From Fodinibius saliphilus (GTDB lineage: Bacteria > Bacteroidota > Rhodothermia > Balneolales > Balneolaceae), in contig NZ_VAWF01000002.1 of assembly GCF_005869845.1 (NCBI RefSeq), positions 372,001 through 436,000 on the forward strand: 64,000 nt of DNA, given 5' to 3'. The translations under genes and the position numbers were made by a program. How positions within the stretch are numbered: the stretch's first letter is position 1; every line of letters begins with the position of its first letter. The notes below the pieces were generated by a model. The model saw only the letters and a list, made by a program, of their open reading frames with translations. It ran no database searches and was not told where the DNA came from. This document shows positions 4,330 through 18,138 of this stretch, one piece after another.

Positions 4330-7212
4330 TTACTTTTCTTTACCAGTTGTGGAGGTATTCTCCTTAACCTTTTTTAGGATATCACCTTTTACAGACACAT
4401 CTACTACATCATAGCCCAATTTCTTCAGCTTTGGGCGATGGGTTTTTGCATCCCCAACCACCAAGATATACATCTTGCCGGTGTCAATATGCTTTTTTGC
4501 CAGCTTATTGATCTCTTTTTTGGTAATAGAATCTATAATTTCGCGCTGTTTATCGACAAATGATTTATCAAGGTCATAGTGGACAATCTCCTGCAGAAAT
4601 CCTGCCTTTTGCCAAGGAGTTTCATAACTGCGAGCATCGCGCTGACCAATAGAGTTACGCATGAAGTTAAGCTCTTCATCCGTAATTCCGTTCTCACGGA
4701 AATCATCCATCTCCTTCATAAACTCATGCACTGCACTATCAGTCGCAGCAGCTTTAACACCGGCTTGGGCTGTAAAAGGACCGGGAATATCACCAGAACT
4801 GAATCCGGTTCGTGCACCGTAAGTCCAGCCTTTATCTTCACGCAGATTTAAATTTATTCGACTGTTAAACGCACCACCCAGGTTATAATTCATCAGCGTT
4901 GATTTGAAGTATTCACCTGTTGCATCGTATGGCATATCTGTCATATGTCCGATACGAATCTGCGACTGTGGGGCATTCGCTTTATCAACAAGATAAACCT
5001 TGGTATTTTCACCAGAACTGGGTTCCGGCAGTTCAGGCATTTTAACCCCTTTGTTCTCCCAGTTTTTCAAGAACTCCAGCTCAGCCAATATTTCACCCTT
5101 TTTAACATCCCCAACAACAACCAGCTCTGAGAGATCCGGCGCATAATACTTCTGATAGAACGACTCTACATCATCCAAGGTAATGCGCTGTACTGTTTCC
5201 TCAATACCACTAGAGGGTACCGAATAGATATGCTTATCACCATATAGCAGGCGACTATATACCTGGCTGGCAATAGAAGCAGGATCTTTATATGAAGATT
5301 GAATACTTTCAATCTGTTGTTTTTTTACACGTGCGAAATCAGTAGAGTCAAAGGCCGGACGATAAAGAATCTCTTCTACCAACTCCAAGGTAGGCTTAAG
5401 GTTCTTTTTCAATGTACGTACATTGAGGTTGGTACTACTCTTCGAAGCATATACATTTACCGAACTTCCCAATTTGCGAAGCTCTTCCTGTATCTCTTCT
5501 GCACTATAATTCTCGGTAGATTCATTCAGCATAGAGGCCGTTAACGAAGCCAACCCTGCTTTGGTAGAATGATTCATATCTAGCCGGTGTCCACCGTTGA
5601 TAGTGAGCTGGAGATTCACCACCGGAATTTCATTATATGACGTTCCGATAACCTTAATTCCATTGTCCATCTCTTTTTCCCAGAAGTCGGGTACACTTAC
5701 CAGTGGGGCAGGACCGGCCTTTGGTTTTTTACTACGATCAAAACTATCTCCTGTAGGTCGTAAATATTCCAGTCCGGAATAATCTGTGGTAGGATAGGGA
5801 TTTTCGCCCTCTTTCTTTGGCGTATAGTTATCAGCCTTTGCCGGCTTGGTTTTTTCATTAGGTAACACGCTTTGAATTACCGCAGGTTTCCCTTTGATAT
5901 ACTTTTTGTAGACGCGCATAATATCGGCTTTGGTAACCGAGCGATAGCGTTCCAGATCTTTTTTGATATAATCCGGATTATCTGCAAAAGTCTCATAACT
6001 AGCTAATTGAGATACTTTTCCACTTACACTGGCTAAACCATTAATGAAGTCTGACTCATATGAAGCCTTAATTTTCTGTAAATCTTCATCAGAAACACCA
6101 TCTTTTTCAAAGTCTATGAGGATTTGGCGCATCTCTGATTCAAAATCGGAGAGTGTTTGTCCGGGAAACGGAAGAACAAACATCGTAAACTCGCCGGCCA
6201 GCTCACTCATAGAACTGAACGTTGAAGCCTGTATCGCTTTTCGAGGTTTCACAAACTTTTTATAAAAATAGGAGCTTTTCCCAGTTCCCAGAATTTGAGC
6301 TAAAAAGTCTAGCGCAGGCTCATCTTTGTGATATCGGGGGACTGTAGGAAAGGTGTATAATAATGCCGGAAATCGAATATTATCATCCACATATGACACA
6401 TATCGATCTTTTTCAATACTTACCGGATCGAGCTTCATATCTTTAACTTCCGGTCCGCGCGGAATAACACCAAAGTATTTCTCTACTTTCTCAACAACCT
6501 CATCGGGATTAACATCGCCACCAATGGTCAGTGTAGCATTGTTAGGTCCGTAATAACGCAGAAAAAACTTCTTGAGGTCTGTTACATCTACCCGATCCAA
6601 ATCTTTTAGCTTTCCGATGGTTAACCAAGAATAGGGGTGCCCATATGGATACAAAGATTCAGCATTGATTTCTCGCCATTGTCCATAAGCGCGGTTGTCG
6701 TAGTTCTGCTGCTTCTCATTTTTAACTGTGGCCCGCTGCACTTCGAACTTTTTCTGTGTTACTGCATTCAAAAAGAAACCCATACGGTCAGATTCCAACC
6801 AAAGCATTGCATCCAGCTGGTTAGAGGGTACAGTTTCAAAATAGTTGGTCCGGTCACGATTAGTAGTACCATTAAGGGTACCACCCGCTTCAGTAATAAT
6901 CTTAAAATGTTCTTCGTCTTCTACGTTTTCAGAACCCTGGAACATCATATGCTCAAAGAAGTGAGCAAAGCCCGACTTTCCCAGTTCTTCTCGAGCAGAT
7001 CCTACATGATAGGTTACATCTACATGAACAAGAGGGTCGGAGTGGTCTTCATGAATAATGAGAGTAAGACCATTATCCAATTCATACTTCTCGTAGGGAA
7101 TGACAATTTCATCTCCCTTCTGTTCCACCTTTTCGATAAGTTTCGTCTGGGCAAAACCGATACTTTGTATCAGCAACAACCCGACTACCAGAAGTGCGCT
7201 ATATTTTTTCAT
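4330..7212 (-). CDS. Periplasmic M16 zinc peptidase, two-module
   Basis: A 960-residue exported zinc peptidase of the M16 (pitrilysin/insulinase) family. A signal peptide (residues 1-21, ending SIGFAQ) precedes two M16 modules. The first carries the inverted zinc motif HFFEH (H84, E87, H88) in GFAHFFEHMMFQG, with the distal glutamate expected in VKNEKQQN near 165. The second module, from about residue 510 (FWEKEMDNGIKVIGTSYNEI), has GLASLTASML in place of HxxEH and is presumably non-catalytic. A final RxxY-type segment (LREDKGWTYGARTGF) near 815 helps bind substrate in the family. This single-chain, two-module form is typical of Bacteroidota and probably degrades peptides in the periplasm. 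It has its own terminator. Confidence 0.95.
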   Translation of the reverse strand: MKKYSALLVVGLLLIQSIGFAQTKLIEKVEQKGDEIVIPYEKYELDNGLTLIIHEDHSDPLVHVDVTYHVGSAREELGKSGFAHFFEHMMFQGSENVEDEEHFKIITEAGGTLNGTTNRDRTNYFETVPSNQLDAMLWLESDRMGFFLNAVTQKKFEVQRATVKNEKQQNYDNRAYGQWREINAESLYPYGHPYSWLTIGKLKDLDRVDVTDLKKFFLRYYGPNNATLTIGGDVNPDEVVEKVEKYFGVIPRGPEVKDMKLDPVSIEKDRYVSYVDDNIRFPALLYTFPTVPRYHKDEPALDFLAQILGTGKSSYFYKKFVKPRKAIQASTFSSMSELAGEFTMFVLPFPGQTLSDFESEMRQILIDFEKDGVSDEDLQKIKASYESDFINGLASVSGKVSQLASYETFADNPDYIKKDLERYRSVTKADIMRVYKKYIKGKPAVIQSVLPNEKTKPAKADNYTPKKEGENPYPTTDYSGLEYLRPTGDSFDRSKKPKAGPAPLVSVPDFWEKEMDNGIKVIGTSYNEIPVVNLQLTINGGHRLDMNHSTKAGLASLTASMLNESTENYSAEEIQEELRKLGSSVNVYASKSSTNLNVRTLKKNLKPTLELVEEILYRPAFDSTDFARVKKQQIESIQSSYKDPASIASQVYSRLLYGDKHIYSVPSSGIEETVQRITLDDVESFYQKYYAPDLSELVVVGDVKKGEILAELEFLKNWENKGVKMPELPEPSSGENTKVYLVDKANAPQSQIRIGHMTDMPYDATGEYFKSTLMNYNLGGAFNSRINLNLREDKGWTYGARTGFSSGDIPGPFTAQAGVKAAATDSAVHEFMKEMDDFRENGITDEELNFMRNSIGQRDARSYETPWQKAGFLQEIVHYDLDKSFVDKQREIIDSITKKEINKLAKKHIDTGKMYILVVGDAKTHRPKLKKLGYDVVDVSVKGDILKKVKENTSTTGKEK

Positions 7213-14750: not shown

Positions 14751-15755
14751 CTAATCAATGATACCCATTTCAACAACTGTCTCATCCATTTCAGAAACAA
14801 TTTCCTGAACCTCTTCTGCAGTATCCGGATCTACGACAGCAATAAGTCCAATTCCCAGGTTAAAAGTAGAGCGCATATCGTCTTCAGGGACATTTCCAAT
14901 ATCCTGAATCAACTCAAAAAGTGCTGGACGATCCCAGGCATCCCAATCTATGTTGATGCCCAGCTGCTCAGGTACTACCCGTTTTGTGTTACCAATAATT
15001 CCACCGCCGGTTACATGAGAAAAGCCGTGTACACCATTAATATCTCGTAATTCTTTGATTAATGGTAAATACGATTTGTGTATGGCCAACAAGGCTTCAC
15101 CAACCGTACCGTCAAGTTCATCTACTTTATCACTTACTTCATATTTCGAAAACAATACTTTACGGGCCAGAGAATAACCATTGGTATGCAAACCAGTACT
15201 GGGAAAGCCGAGAAGAACATCTCCTTGCTCAATATCCTTACCATTAATCACTTTTTCACGGTCAACCATACCCACAATGGTCCCTGCCAAGTCAAACTCA
15301 CCCTCATTGTAGATATCGGGCATCTCTGCAGTTTCTCCACCGATAAGTGCTACTCCATTTTCTTTACAGGCTTTAGCAAAGCCTTTAACTACTTCGTAAC
15401 CTACTTCCTGTTCCAGTTTTCCGGTAGAAAAATAATCCAGAAAAAAGAGAGGATCGGCACCACAAACAGCAATATCGTTTATGCAATGATTAACCAAATC
15501 TTGGCCGACAGTATCATATTTTTGAGCTTTAAAAGCTACAATTAGCTTAGTACCTACACCATCCACGCTACTAACAAAAACAGGATCATCATAGCTTCCT
15601 AAATCAGGACGAAAGAACCCCCCAAATCCACCGATATTACTTAGTACGGCATTACTGTGGGTTTCTTTTACTACATCTTTAATTGATTCTACCATTTCTT
15701 CACCGGCTTCAATATCAACACCGGCATCTTTATACGTAAATTCTTTTTTACTCAT
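14751..15755 (-). CDS. purM: Phosphoribosylformylglycinamidine cyclo-ligase
   Basis: AIR synthetase, the ATP-dependent fifth step of purine biosynthesis (FGAM to AIR). The frame is open upstream to 15818, but the family start is MSKKEFTYKDAGVDIEAGEEM, so I place the ATG at 15755, giving 334 residues. Motifs include DGVGTKLIVAFKA, HCINDIAVCGADPLFFLDYF, ALIGGETAEMPDIY and SHVTGGGIIGNTKR. The start codon overlaps the stop of the upstream YfiT-like gene by one base (TAATG), so translation is probably coupled. Its length is close to the usual 340-350. Confidence 0.96.
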   Translation of the reverse strand: MSKKEFTYKDAGVDIEAGEEMVESIKDVVKETHSNAVLSNIGGFGGFFRPDLGSYDDPVFVSSVDGVGTKLIVAFKAQKYDTVGQDLVNHCINDIAVCGADPLFFLDYFSTGKLEQEVGYEVVKGFAKACKENGVALIGGETAEMPDIYNEGEFDLAGTIVGMVDREKVINGKDIEQGDVLLGFPSTGLHTNGYSLARKVLFSKYEVSDKVDELDGTVGEALLAIHKSYLPLIKELRDINGVHGFSHVTGGGIIGNTKRVVPEQLGINIDWDAWDRPALFELIQDIGNVPEDDMRSTFNLGIGLIAVVDPDTAEEVQEIVSEMDETVVEMGIID

Positions 15756-16279
15756 TAGTTCCAGTTTTTTCGCTTTTTCAAAGTTGTTATGTGTGCCAGG
15801 TGATGTTTCCCATGCCAAGCATAAAGGCCTATTAAACTTTTCAATACAAGTATACCTTGATCAGGATGAACAAGTTCTCGGTTAAGCTGGTTTTTATCCA
15901 GTGACTTAAGCAAATTAGTCCAACGCTGATGTATACCGCTAATCACCTTCAGTGAAGGTTCAATAGACGCAGAAGAATCAACGAGATCAGCCCATAAATC
16001 CTGATCGTAAGGTTTTACAGTTGGACAATCTTCAGTAAGAGTTAATTTAACTCGGCAGTATCCATTTAGGTGACTGTCAGCAAGATGATGGATTACCTGA
16101 CGCAAAGTCCATCCATTTTCTCGATAAGGTGTCTTAAGTTGCTCATTTGTTAACCTTGAAACTTGTTTTTGTAATTGCATTGGTAATGCCTCAATCTCGT
16201 CAATCGAGCTGGCAATATCCCGGGGAGAGACAGGATCTTGGATCTGGTACCGACCAATCGGATATTTGAGATTTAGCAT
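15755..16279 (-). CDS. YfiT-like putative metal-dependent hydrolase (DinB superfamily)
   Basis: A 174-residue protein of the YfiT/BstA branch of the DinB four-helix superfamily. The N-terminal LKYPIGRYQIQDPVSPRDI is typical. Three metal-binding histidines are visible: His in VIHHLADSHLNGY (about 67-71) and the HGKHHLAHI cluster near residue 158. Relatives include bacillithiol S-transferases, so thiol-dependent detoxification is possible but unproven here. It is translationally coupled to purM through a TAATG overlap. Its 5' end faces the DnaA-box-rich gap, so its promoter must lie in or beside the origin. Confidence 0.9.
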   Translation of the reverse strand: MLNLKYPIGRYQIQDPVSPRDIASSIDEIEALPMQLQKQVSRLTNEQLKTPYRENGWTLRQVIHHLADSHLNGYCRVKLTLTEDCPTVKPYDQDLWADLVDSSASIEPSLKVISGIHQRWTNLLKSLDKNQLNRELVHPDQGILVLKSLIGLYAWHGKHHLAHITTLKKRKNWN

Positions 16280-16360
16280 AATTTATTCTGAACGTTTCAG
16301 AGGTTCGCTTTTTAAACTGATATGAATATAGCCAACTTGGTTCTCGTTTTTAAGAATTAT

Positions 16361-16725
16361 TTCTCCACATTATCCACCGGAAAACACTAAATACAATAAG
16401 ATTATAATATTTGTAGTACATAGTAGTTACTGTGGATAAGTGGAAAACTTTTCCATACACAGTAATATAATATTGTTAACAGTTTTGTGGATTATTTTGT
16501 GGATAACTATCATATAAAAAACAATACTTTAGCGTTAATTATTTTTGGTTATCCACAATCCACAATAAAGTGAGTGTCAAGAAAAAAATGTTATCGACAC
16601 AAAAATTTGATTGGATAACCTGTGGAAAACAAAATTAAGTTGTTGAAAGCTGTGGAGAAATTTTGTTGGTTTTGAATGTTCTATTTTGAGAAGAAGTTAT
16701 ACACATACTTATCCACATAGTTATT
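16361..16725. other. Candidate chromosomal replication origin (oriC)
   Basis: DnaA boxes fill this gap. Perfect copies of TTATCCACA: 16431-16439 (-), 16498-16506 (-), 16549-16557 (+) and 16709-16717 (+). One-mismatch copies: 16370-16378 (TTATCCACC), 16486-16494 (-), 16591-16599 (TTATCGACA), 16621-16629 (-), 16651-16659 (-) and 16697-16705 (TTATACACA). AT-rich stretches lie at 16388-16412 and 16507-16548. This density in a 459-bp non-coding gap flanked by outward-facing genes is what origins show. dnaA is not in the window, which is common in Bacteroidota. A DnaA-autoregulated promoter is the main alternative. Confidence 0.85.
16388..16439 (-). other. DnaA box / DnaA-trio-like / AT-rich unwinding module
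   Basis: Read on the minus strand: a perfect box TTATCCACA (16439-16431), a three-base spacer, then ACTACTATGTACTAC (16427-16413), then 25 bp of almost pure A/T (16412-16388). The CTA repeats resemble the DnaA-trios that nucleate DnaA filaments on single strands in Bacillus-type basal unwinding elements. The order (box, trio, AT-rich) matches that architecture. Confidence 0.65.
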
Positions 16726-16738
16726 AACAGACTTAAAT

Positions 16739-17179
16739 ATGAAAATTGTTCTACAGCGGGTATCAAAAGCGAGTGTTACAGTCGACGATGTGCGAATCGG
16801 ATCAATTTCAGATGGTTTGATGCTGCTTGTTGGTGTCCATGAAGATGACACTAAAGAAGAAATGGAGTGGCTGGCAGAAAAGATTTTAAAACTCCGTGTG
16901 TTTGATGACAAGGATGGTAAAATGAATCTGTCGGTACAAGATATTAATGGAGAGATTCTGGTAGTCCCACAGTTTACTTTATACGGTGATTATAAACAGG
17001 GAAACAGACCAAGTTACTTTGAGGCTGCTGGTCCTAAAAAGGCTAAACAGCTATATAAAGGAATACTTACCTATTTTAAGGAGAACTCATCTCTTAATAT
17101 AGAAAGAGGTGAATTTGGTGCTTATATGGATGTTGAGCTTAACAACGATGGTCCGGTTACTTTGGTTATGAAAAGATAA
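16739..17179 (+). CDS. dtd: D-aminoacyl-tRNA deacylase
   Basis: A 146-residue DTD enzyme that hydrolyses D-amino acids (and glycine) from mischarged tRNA, giving chiral proofreading in the cytosol. The N-terminus MKIVLQRVSKASVTVD is diagnostic. The two active-site motifs are VPQFTLYGD (about 81-89; the common Ser-Gln is Pro-Gln here) and NNDGPVTLVMKR at the C-terminus, which contains the Gly-cisPro pair used for chiral exclusion. Length is exactly typical. The start lies only 21 bp from the last DnaA box, so its promoter lies inside the origin region. Confidence 0.95.
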   Translation: MKIVLQRVSKASVTVDDVRIGSISDGLMLLVGVHEDDTKEEMEWLAEKILKLRVFDDKDGKMNLSVQDINGEILVVPQFTLYGDYKQGNRPSYFEAAGPKKAKQLYKGILTYFKENSSLNIERGEFGAYMDVELNNDGPVTLVMKR

Positions 17180-17244
17180 AACTCAAACTACCAGGTGAGT
17201 TTTACGGTTTTAAATGAATATTTTAACTGCTATTATCTGTTCTA

Positions 17245-18138
17245 ATGGCTGTACTTTTTCTATTTATAGATGGCGTTGGGCTGGGACCTGAAGGTTCATC
17301 TAATCCGTTTGTTGATGCAAATTACAAAGGTTTTACGGCTATGGCGGGTGGTCACAATTTTACGATCGATTCTCCACCGGTTAAAACTAATGATCATCTT
17401 TTTAAAGGTATTGATGCAAATCTTGGTGTTGAAGGTTTACCGCAAAGTGGAACAGGACAAACGGCTCTGTTTACCGGGGAAAATGCATCTCAAAAAATAG
17501 GCAAACATTTTGGGCCTTTTCCACATTCAGGGATCAAGACATTCTTAAAAGAAGAAAGTATTTTTCACAGGGCCCAGGAAAGGGGAAAACAATGCCAGTT
17601 TATGAATGCTTATCCGGATATTTTTTTTAAGAAAGCACGAGAAAGAGATAGATGGAGCTGTACCACCCTGATGACAAAAAGTGCTAATTTAGCGTTAAAT
17701 AGCGTTGAAGAAGTTAAAGAGGGGAAGGCATTAACCGCTGAAATTACACAGCAAGCATGGCGTGATAAACTAGGAATAGATGTGCCTCATGTTTCTCCGG
17801 AATCTGCAGCAGATCGATTGTTGGAACAATCTAAAAAATATGATCTGTTATTACATGAATACTATCTGACAGACAAAGCAGGTCACAGTCAAGAGATGAA
17901 AAAAGCTCATAAATTTCTATCGGTTTATGATCGTTTTTTATGGCATCTAATTAATCATAAACCGAGGGAGCTAACGATTGTTCTGTCGAGCGATCACGGA
18001 AATGTAGAAGACCTTTCTATTAAAACACATACCCGAAATGAGGTTCCCCTTTTTGTATACGGGCCGGGAGCTAATTCTTTTGAAGAAGCAAAGAGTATTA
18101 TGGATGTGACTCCGGGGATAGTAGAAATATTGATCTAA
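17245..18138 (+). CDS. Phosphoglycerate mutase/alkaline phosphatase-like metalloenzyme
   Basis: A 297-residue protein of the metalloenzyme superfamily that includes independent phosphoglycerate mutase, phosphopentomutase and alkaline phosphatases. Metal ligands are likely in LFLFIDGVGLG (Asp9) and SSDHGNVEDLSIKTHTRNEVP (Asp/His/His, about 250-270). GLPQSGTGQTALFTGENA (about 73-90) would hold the phosphorylated Thr/Ser nucleophile. It is shorter than BPG-independent mutase (about 510 residues), lacking a large inserted phosphotransferase domain, so it is not a standard glycolytic enzyme. The substrate is unknown. It follows dtd by 65 bp on the same strand. Confidence 0.82.
   Translation: MAVLFLFIDGVGLGPEGSSNPFVDANYKGFTAMAGGHNFTIDSPPVKTNDHLFKGIDANLGVEGLPQSGTGQTALFTGENASQKIGKHFGPFPHSGIKTFLKEESIFHRAQERGKQCQFMNAYPDIFFKKARERDRWSCTTLMTKSANLALNSVEEVKEGKALTAEITQQAWRDKLGIDVPHVSPESAADRLLEQSKKYDLLLHEYYLTDKAGHSQEMKKAHKFLSVYDRFLWHLINHKPRELTIVLSSDHGNVEDLSIKTHTRNEVPLFVYGPGANSFEEAKSIMDVTPGIVEILI

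Follow-up and report, generated by a model that had tools for sequence, protein, structure and literature searches.

In the window, the 64,000-nt stretch of Fodinibius saliphilus DNA analysed here, a gene-free gap separates a DinB_2-family gene from dtd, and an array of DnaA boxes lies within it (Table 1). The gap is non-coding, with an AT content of 66-80% in 50-bp windows, and its AT-richest stretch, a candidate unwinding element, adjoins the boxes. The neighbouring genes are divergent, so the AT-rich, non-coding stretch between outward-facing genes of the original prediction is indeed there. That prediction had also placed the site next to dtd and purM; this is right for dtd, but the immediate left neighbour is the DinB_2-family gene, with purM beyond it. 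The gap has housekeeping genes (purM, dtd, adk) as neighbours, and an Rfam search of 15700-17300 gave no matches.

Table 1. Features at the dtd locus of F. saliphilus. Coordinates refer to the window; negative positions are upstream of dtd.
Feature	Coordinates	Strand	Remarks
purM, next gene after the DinB_2-family gene	14751-15818		
Left flanking gene, DinB_2 family	15755-16279	-	
Intergenic region with predicted oriC	16280-16738		459 bp, gene-free, from DinB-family ORF end (16279) to dtd start (16739)
DnaA box, one mismatch, TTCTCCACA	16361-16369	+	Left edge of array; position -378, kept in nearly all Fodinibius-group loci
DnaA box, one mismatch, TTATCCACC	16370-16378	+	Position -369, conserved in Fodinibius
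Candidate DNA unwinding element	16381-16430		Highest-AT stretch (80% AT)
DnaA-trio-like repeats, TAG TAC A TAG TAG (5' to 3')	16414-16426	+	4-nt spacer to box; invariant in Fodinibius loci
DnaA box, perfect, trio-proximal	16431-16439	-	Position -308, conserved in most Fodinibius loci
Second box of tandem pair, overlapping	16439-16447	-	Two mismatches here; one in most Fodinibius relatives
DnaA box, one mismatch, TAATCCACA	16486-16494	-	Position -253, conserved
DnaA box, perfect	16498-16506	-	Position -241
DnaA box, perfect	16549-16557	+	Position -190
DnaA box, one mismatch, TTATCGACA	16591-16599	+	Position -148
DnaA box, one mismatch, TTTTCCACA	16621-16629	-	Position -118
DnaA box, one mismatch, TTCTCCACA	16651-16659	-	Position -88
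DnaA box, one mismatch, TTATACACA	16697-16705	+	Position -42
DnaA box, perfect	16709-16717	+	Position -30
dtd, D-Tyr-tRNA deacylase, right flanking gene	16739-17179	+	PF02580, E 1.5e-58

The array comprises four perfect TTATCCACA boxes and seven boxes with one mismatch, 11 in the 357 bp from 16361 to 16717; the same four perfect boxes had been claimed beforehand, together with at least six one-mismatch boxes. No other perfect copy occurs in the window, and none of 40 other sampled 20-kb stretches of the genome holds more than three boxes per 500 bp. A genome search for a tandem perfect-box pattern yielded no match. It could be argued that the AT-rich composition of the region yields boxes, single copies being scattered through the 3.6-Mb genome (47 perfect ones, of which the array holds 4), and that these coincide by chance with the turn in GC skew described below. 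Markov-1 shuffling of the 459-bp gap refutes this reading: over 5,000 runs it produced on average 0.008 perfect boxes and 0.20 boxes in total, with maxima of 1 and 3, against the 4 and 11 observed, so that the density is, as claimed, far above chance. The positions and orientations of the boxes are, moreover, conserved, and we consider the probability of such a coincidence practically negligible.

The genome is assembled in 11 contigs, and skew was read contig by contig from sampled stretches, the sampling covering all but six small contigs of about 25 kb in total. As had been anticipated for an origin, the cumulative GC-skew minimum of the window falls at the site (15950, some 400-770 bp from the box array). 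On the 587-kb contig that carries it (C2), all ten 20-kb samples to the left are negative (-0.03 to -0.18) and all four to the right are positive (+0.07 to +0.11), and the contigs sampled hold no second turn of this direction. In the remaining large contigs, the sampled stretches of C3 are all positive and those of C4 and C5 all negative; C1 has a single positive-to-negative turn at about 620 to 800 kb. Reversing a contig leaves the direction of its turn unchanged, so the sampled data hold one origin-type turn, at dtd, and one terminus-type turn, on C1. A dif-site pattern, sought as a terminus marker with up to three mismatches, had no match.

The array is not confined to F. saliphilus. In the Balneolaceae search, all 35 loci, one of which (L209) belongs to another Balneolales family, carry 4-13 boxes upstream of dtd, at nearly constant offsets and in nearly constant orientations; other Balneolaceae have a plus-strand box near -365 that can be compared with the -369 box of the Fodinibius loci. 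In four other Balneolales families, boxes precede dtd in 11 of 11 loci, with 3-9 each, the lowest count coming from a 200-bp stub. Further afield, the 600 bp upstream of dtd are free of boxes in nine other, GC-rich genomes of the class, and a box cluster is likewise absent from the dtd loci of distant Bacteroidetes; the link to dtd hence seems to be limited to the Balneolales. In G106 (L284-L303), from another order of the class, skew turns neither at dtd nor clearly at dnaA, and origin location therefore varies within the class. We also note that purM directly flanks the predicted origin in some Fodinibius relatives, and that a DinB-family gene intervenes in others, as it does here.

The alternative that deserves most discussion is that the true origin lies at dnaA, and that the dtd array merely titrates DnaA, in the manner of datA, or regulates dtd. 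The single dnaA copy sits at 36 kb on contig C4, and three perfect DnaA boxes lie upstream of it (G000:C4:35463-35732; L001:755-1024), two or three of which recur at conserved spacing in four relatives. However, skew is negative on both sides of dnaA and in all seven sampled stretches of C4, with no turn at the gene, and the denser box cluster that would have counted against the dtd site is not present there (3 boxes against 11 at dtd). The genome thus resembles others in having DnaA boxes at the dnaA promoter, but these differ from the dtd array in being few and unidirectional, without a skew turn and without TAG repeats or a trio motif beside them; they are probably the usual autoregulatory boxes. 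The single-contig chromosomes of three relatives point the same way, with skew changing sign at dtd and not at dnaA. In G066, from another Balneolales family, dtd lies 270 kb from dnaA, and at dtd skew passes from -0.03 to +0.03; the stretches on the side of dnaA, from 1 to 270 kb, are negative. In G034 (dtd at 320.5 kb) values left of dtd are negative or close to zero and those right of it are positive, and the 3.60-3.62 Mb stretch adjoining dnaA is negative, belonging to the same arm as its neighbours; in G043 it goes from -0.09 to +0.06 at dtd. Skew is noisy in the latter two, the 280-300 kb stretch of G034 being slightly positive and the 1.2-1.4 Mb stretches of G043 slightly negative. We accordingly regard an origin at dnaA as very improbable.

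Alignment of the dtd loci reveals a module in which a 4-nt spacer separates TAG repeats from two boxes that overlap (for most Fodinibius loci, TGTGGATAAGTGGATAAC). Among 19 boxes that stand at the module position and have no more than one mismatch, 17 have a TAG at the 4-nt spacer, compared with 1 of 191 other boxes, and at least two TAG in the first three triplets accompany 16 of the 19 and none of the 191. At this spacer the Fodinibius run consists of two contiguous trios, one extra base and two more trios; several other Balneolaceae genera have three or four contiguous TAG. The locus in F. saliphilus combines a DnaA box, a spacer of no more than 16 bp and TAG-type trios on the correct strand, the orientation being taken in part from PMC6669920 and PMC8287927. 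A run of at least three contiguous NAN trios, as the rule of PMC8287927 demands, was not found in the window at the 4-nt spacer. The basal unwinding system (BUS), known from B. subtilis and predicted to be present in 85% of the origins surveyed (PMC6669920, PMC8287927), shares with the module its TAG repeats (3'-GAT-5' when reversed), a spacer of about 4 nt and tandem DnaA boxes; it differs in that the Fodinibius trio run is broken by one base after two trios, and in that melting at the Fodinibius site is a prediction. In B. subtilis, a one-base deletion in the trios made unwinding slower without abolishing it (PMC6669920), and the Fodinibius interruption need not, therefore, destroy function. 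We suggest that the module, given its resemblance to the DnaA-trio unwinding element, probably marks the melting site (16414-16447).

The same combination of TAG repeats and overlapping DnaA boxes (agtagtcgtagtagggcctgtggataagtggaaaac) occurs in an intergenic position (5848-5905) of a 60-kb viral contig (L283; IMGVR_UViG_3300044799_000410), with GC skew of opposite sign on either side; it is possible that this is a DnaA-dependent phage origin. The presence of the trio-plus-tandem-box module on this phage contig also raises the question of whether the dtd array could be a second origin, from a plasmid or phage, integrated in the chromosome. The housekeeping character of the neighbouring genes, the conservation of the same place across a bacterial order and the chromosome-scale skew that turns at the array all speak against integration, which we judge to be extremely improbable.

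Taken from sequence, the box array, the skew turn with its counterparts in relatives, the conservation of the arrays and the trio-like module converge on the reading that the gap is, with high confidence, the chromosomal replication origin, oriC, sited at dtd and away from dnaA as originally proposed. By analogy with B. subtilis and other species, DnaA would bind the box array, and a DnaA filament would grow from the overlapping pair (16431-16447) leftwards, on the plus strand, across the TAG repeats. This filament would melt the AT-rich stretch (about 16381-16430), the site and strand being carried over from those species, and the helicase would be loaded at the melted stretch; two forks would then depart in opposite directions and meet across the chromosome, within the interval from about 620 to 800 kb of C1. 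The remaining boxes would probably serve to gather DnaA, the role proposed in B. subtilis for its distal boxes.

An origin at a site not marked by dnaA, which does lie on another contig, is less unusual than had been implied, as a large distance between oriC and dnaA is reported to be common in the Bacteroidetes (PMC4755523); in this light the dtd site is a well-supported ordinary oriC. It resembles origins such as that of Prevotella intermedia OMA14 (PMC4755523) in having a DnaA-box cluster at a skew transition with dnaA elsewhere, and appears to differ in its neighbour, dtd, which is conserved across the Balneolales. In a literature search of partial coverage, with DoriC outside it, we found no paper on oriC in Fodinibius or the Balneolales, or on a dtd-linked oriC. 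We would put forward tentatively, and with the balance somewhat against it, the wider proposal that the side of dtd may be an old, order-wide and undescribed fixed address of oriC in the Balneolales, and that the Fodinibius unwinding element may function despite the one-base interruption of its trio run, which would be a variation on the BUS rule. An origin located this precisely for the whole order would make it possible to orient chromosomes, to compute growth rates from read depth in metagenomes and to design shuttle replicons for halophiles of this group, and the trio module would allow the unwinding rule to be tested directly in a lineage whose oriC lies apart from dnaA. As a separate observation, three other genomes of the class, G135 and G141 (L232/L237/L241/L242) and G114 (L235/L240) each encode two DnaA-domain proteins per genome.
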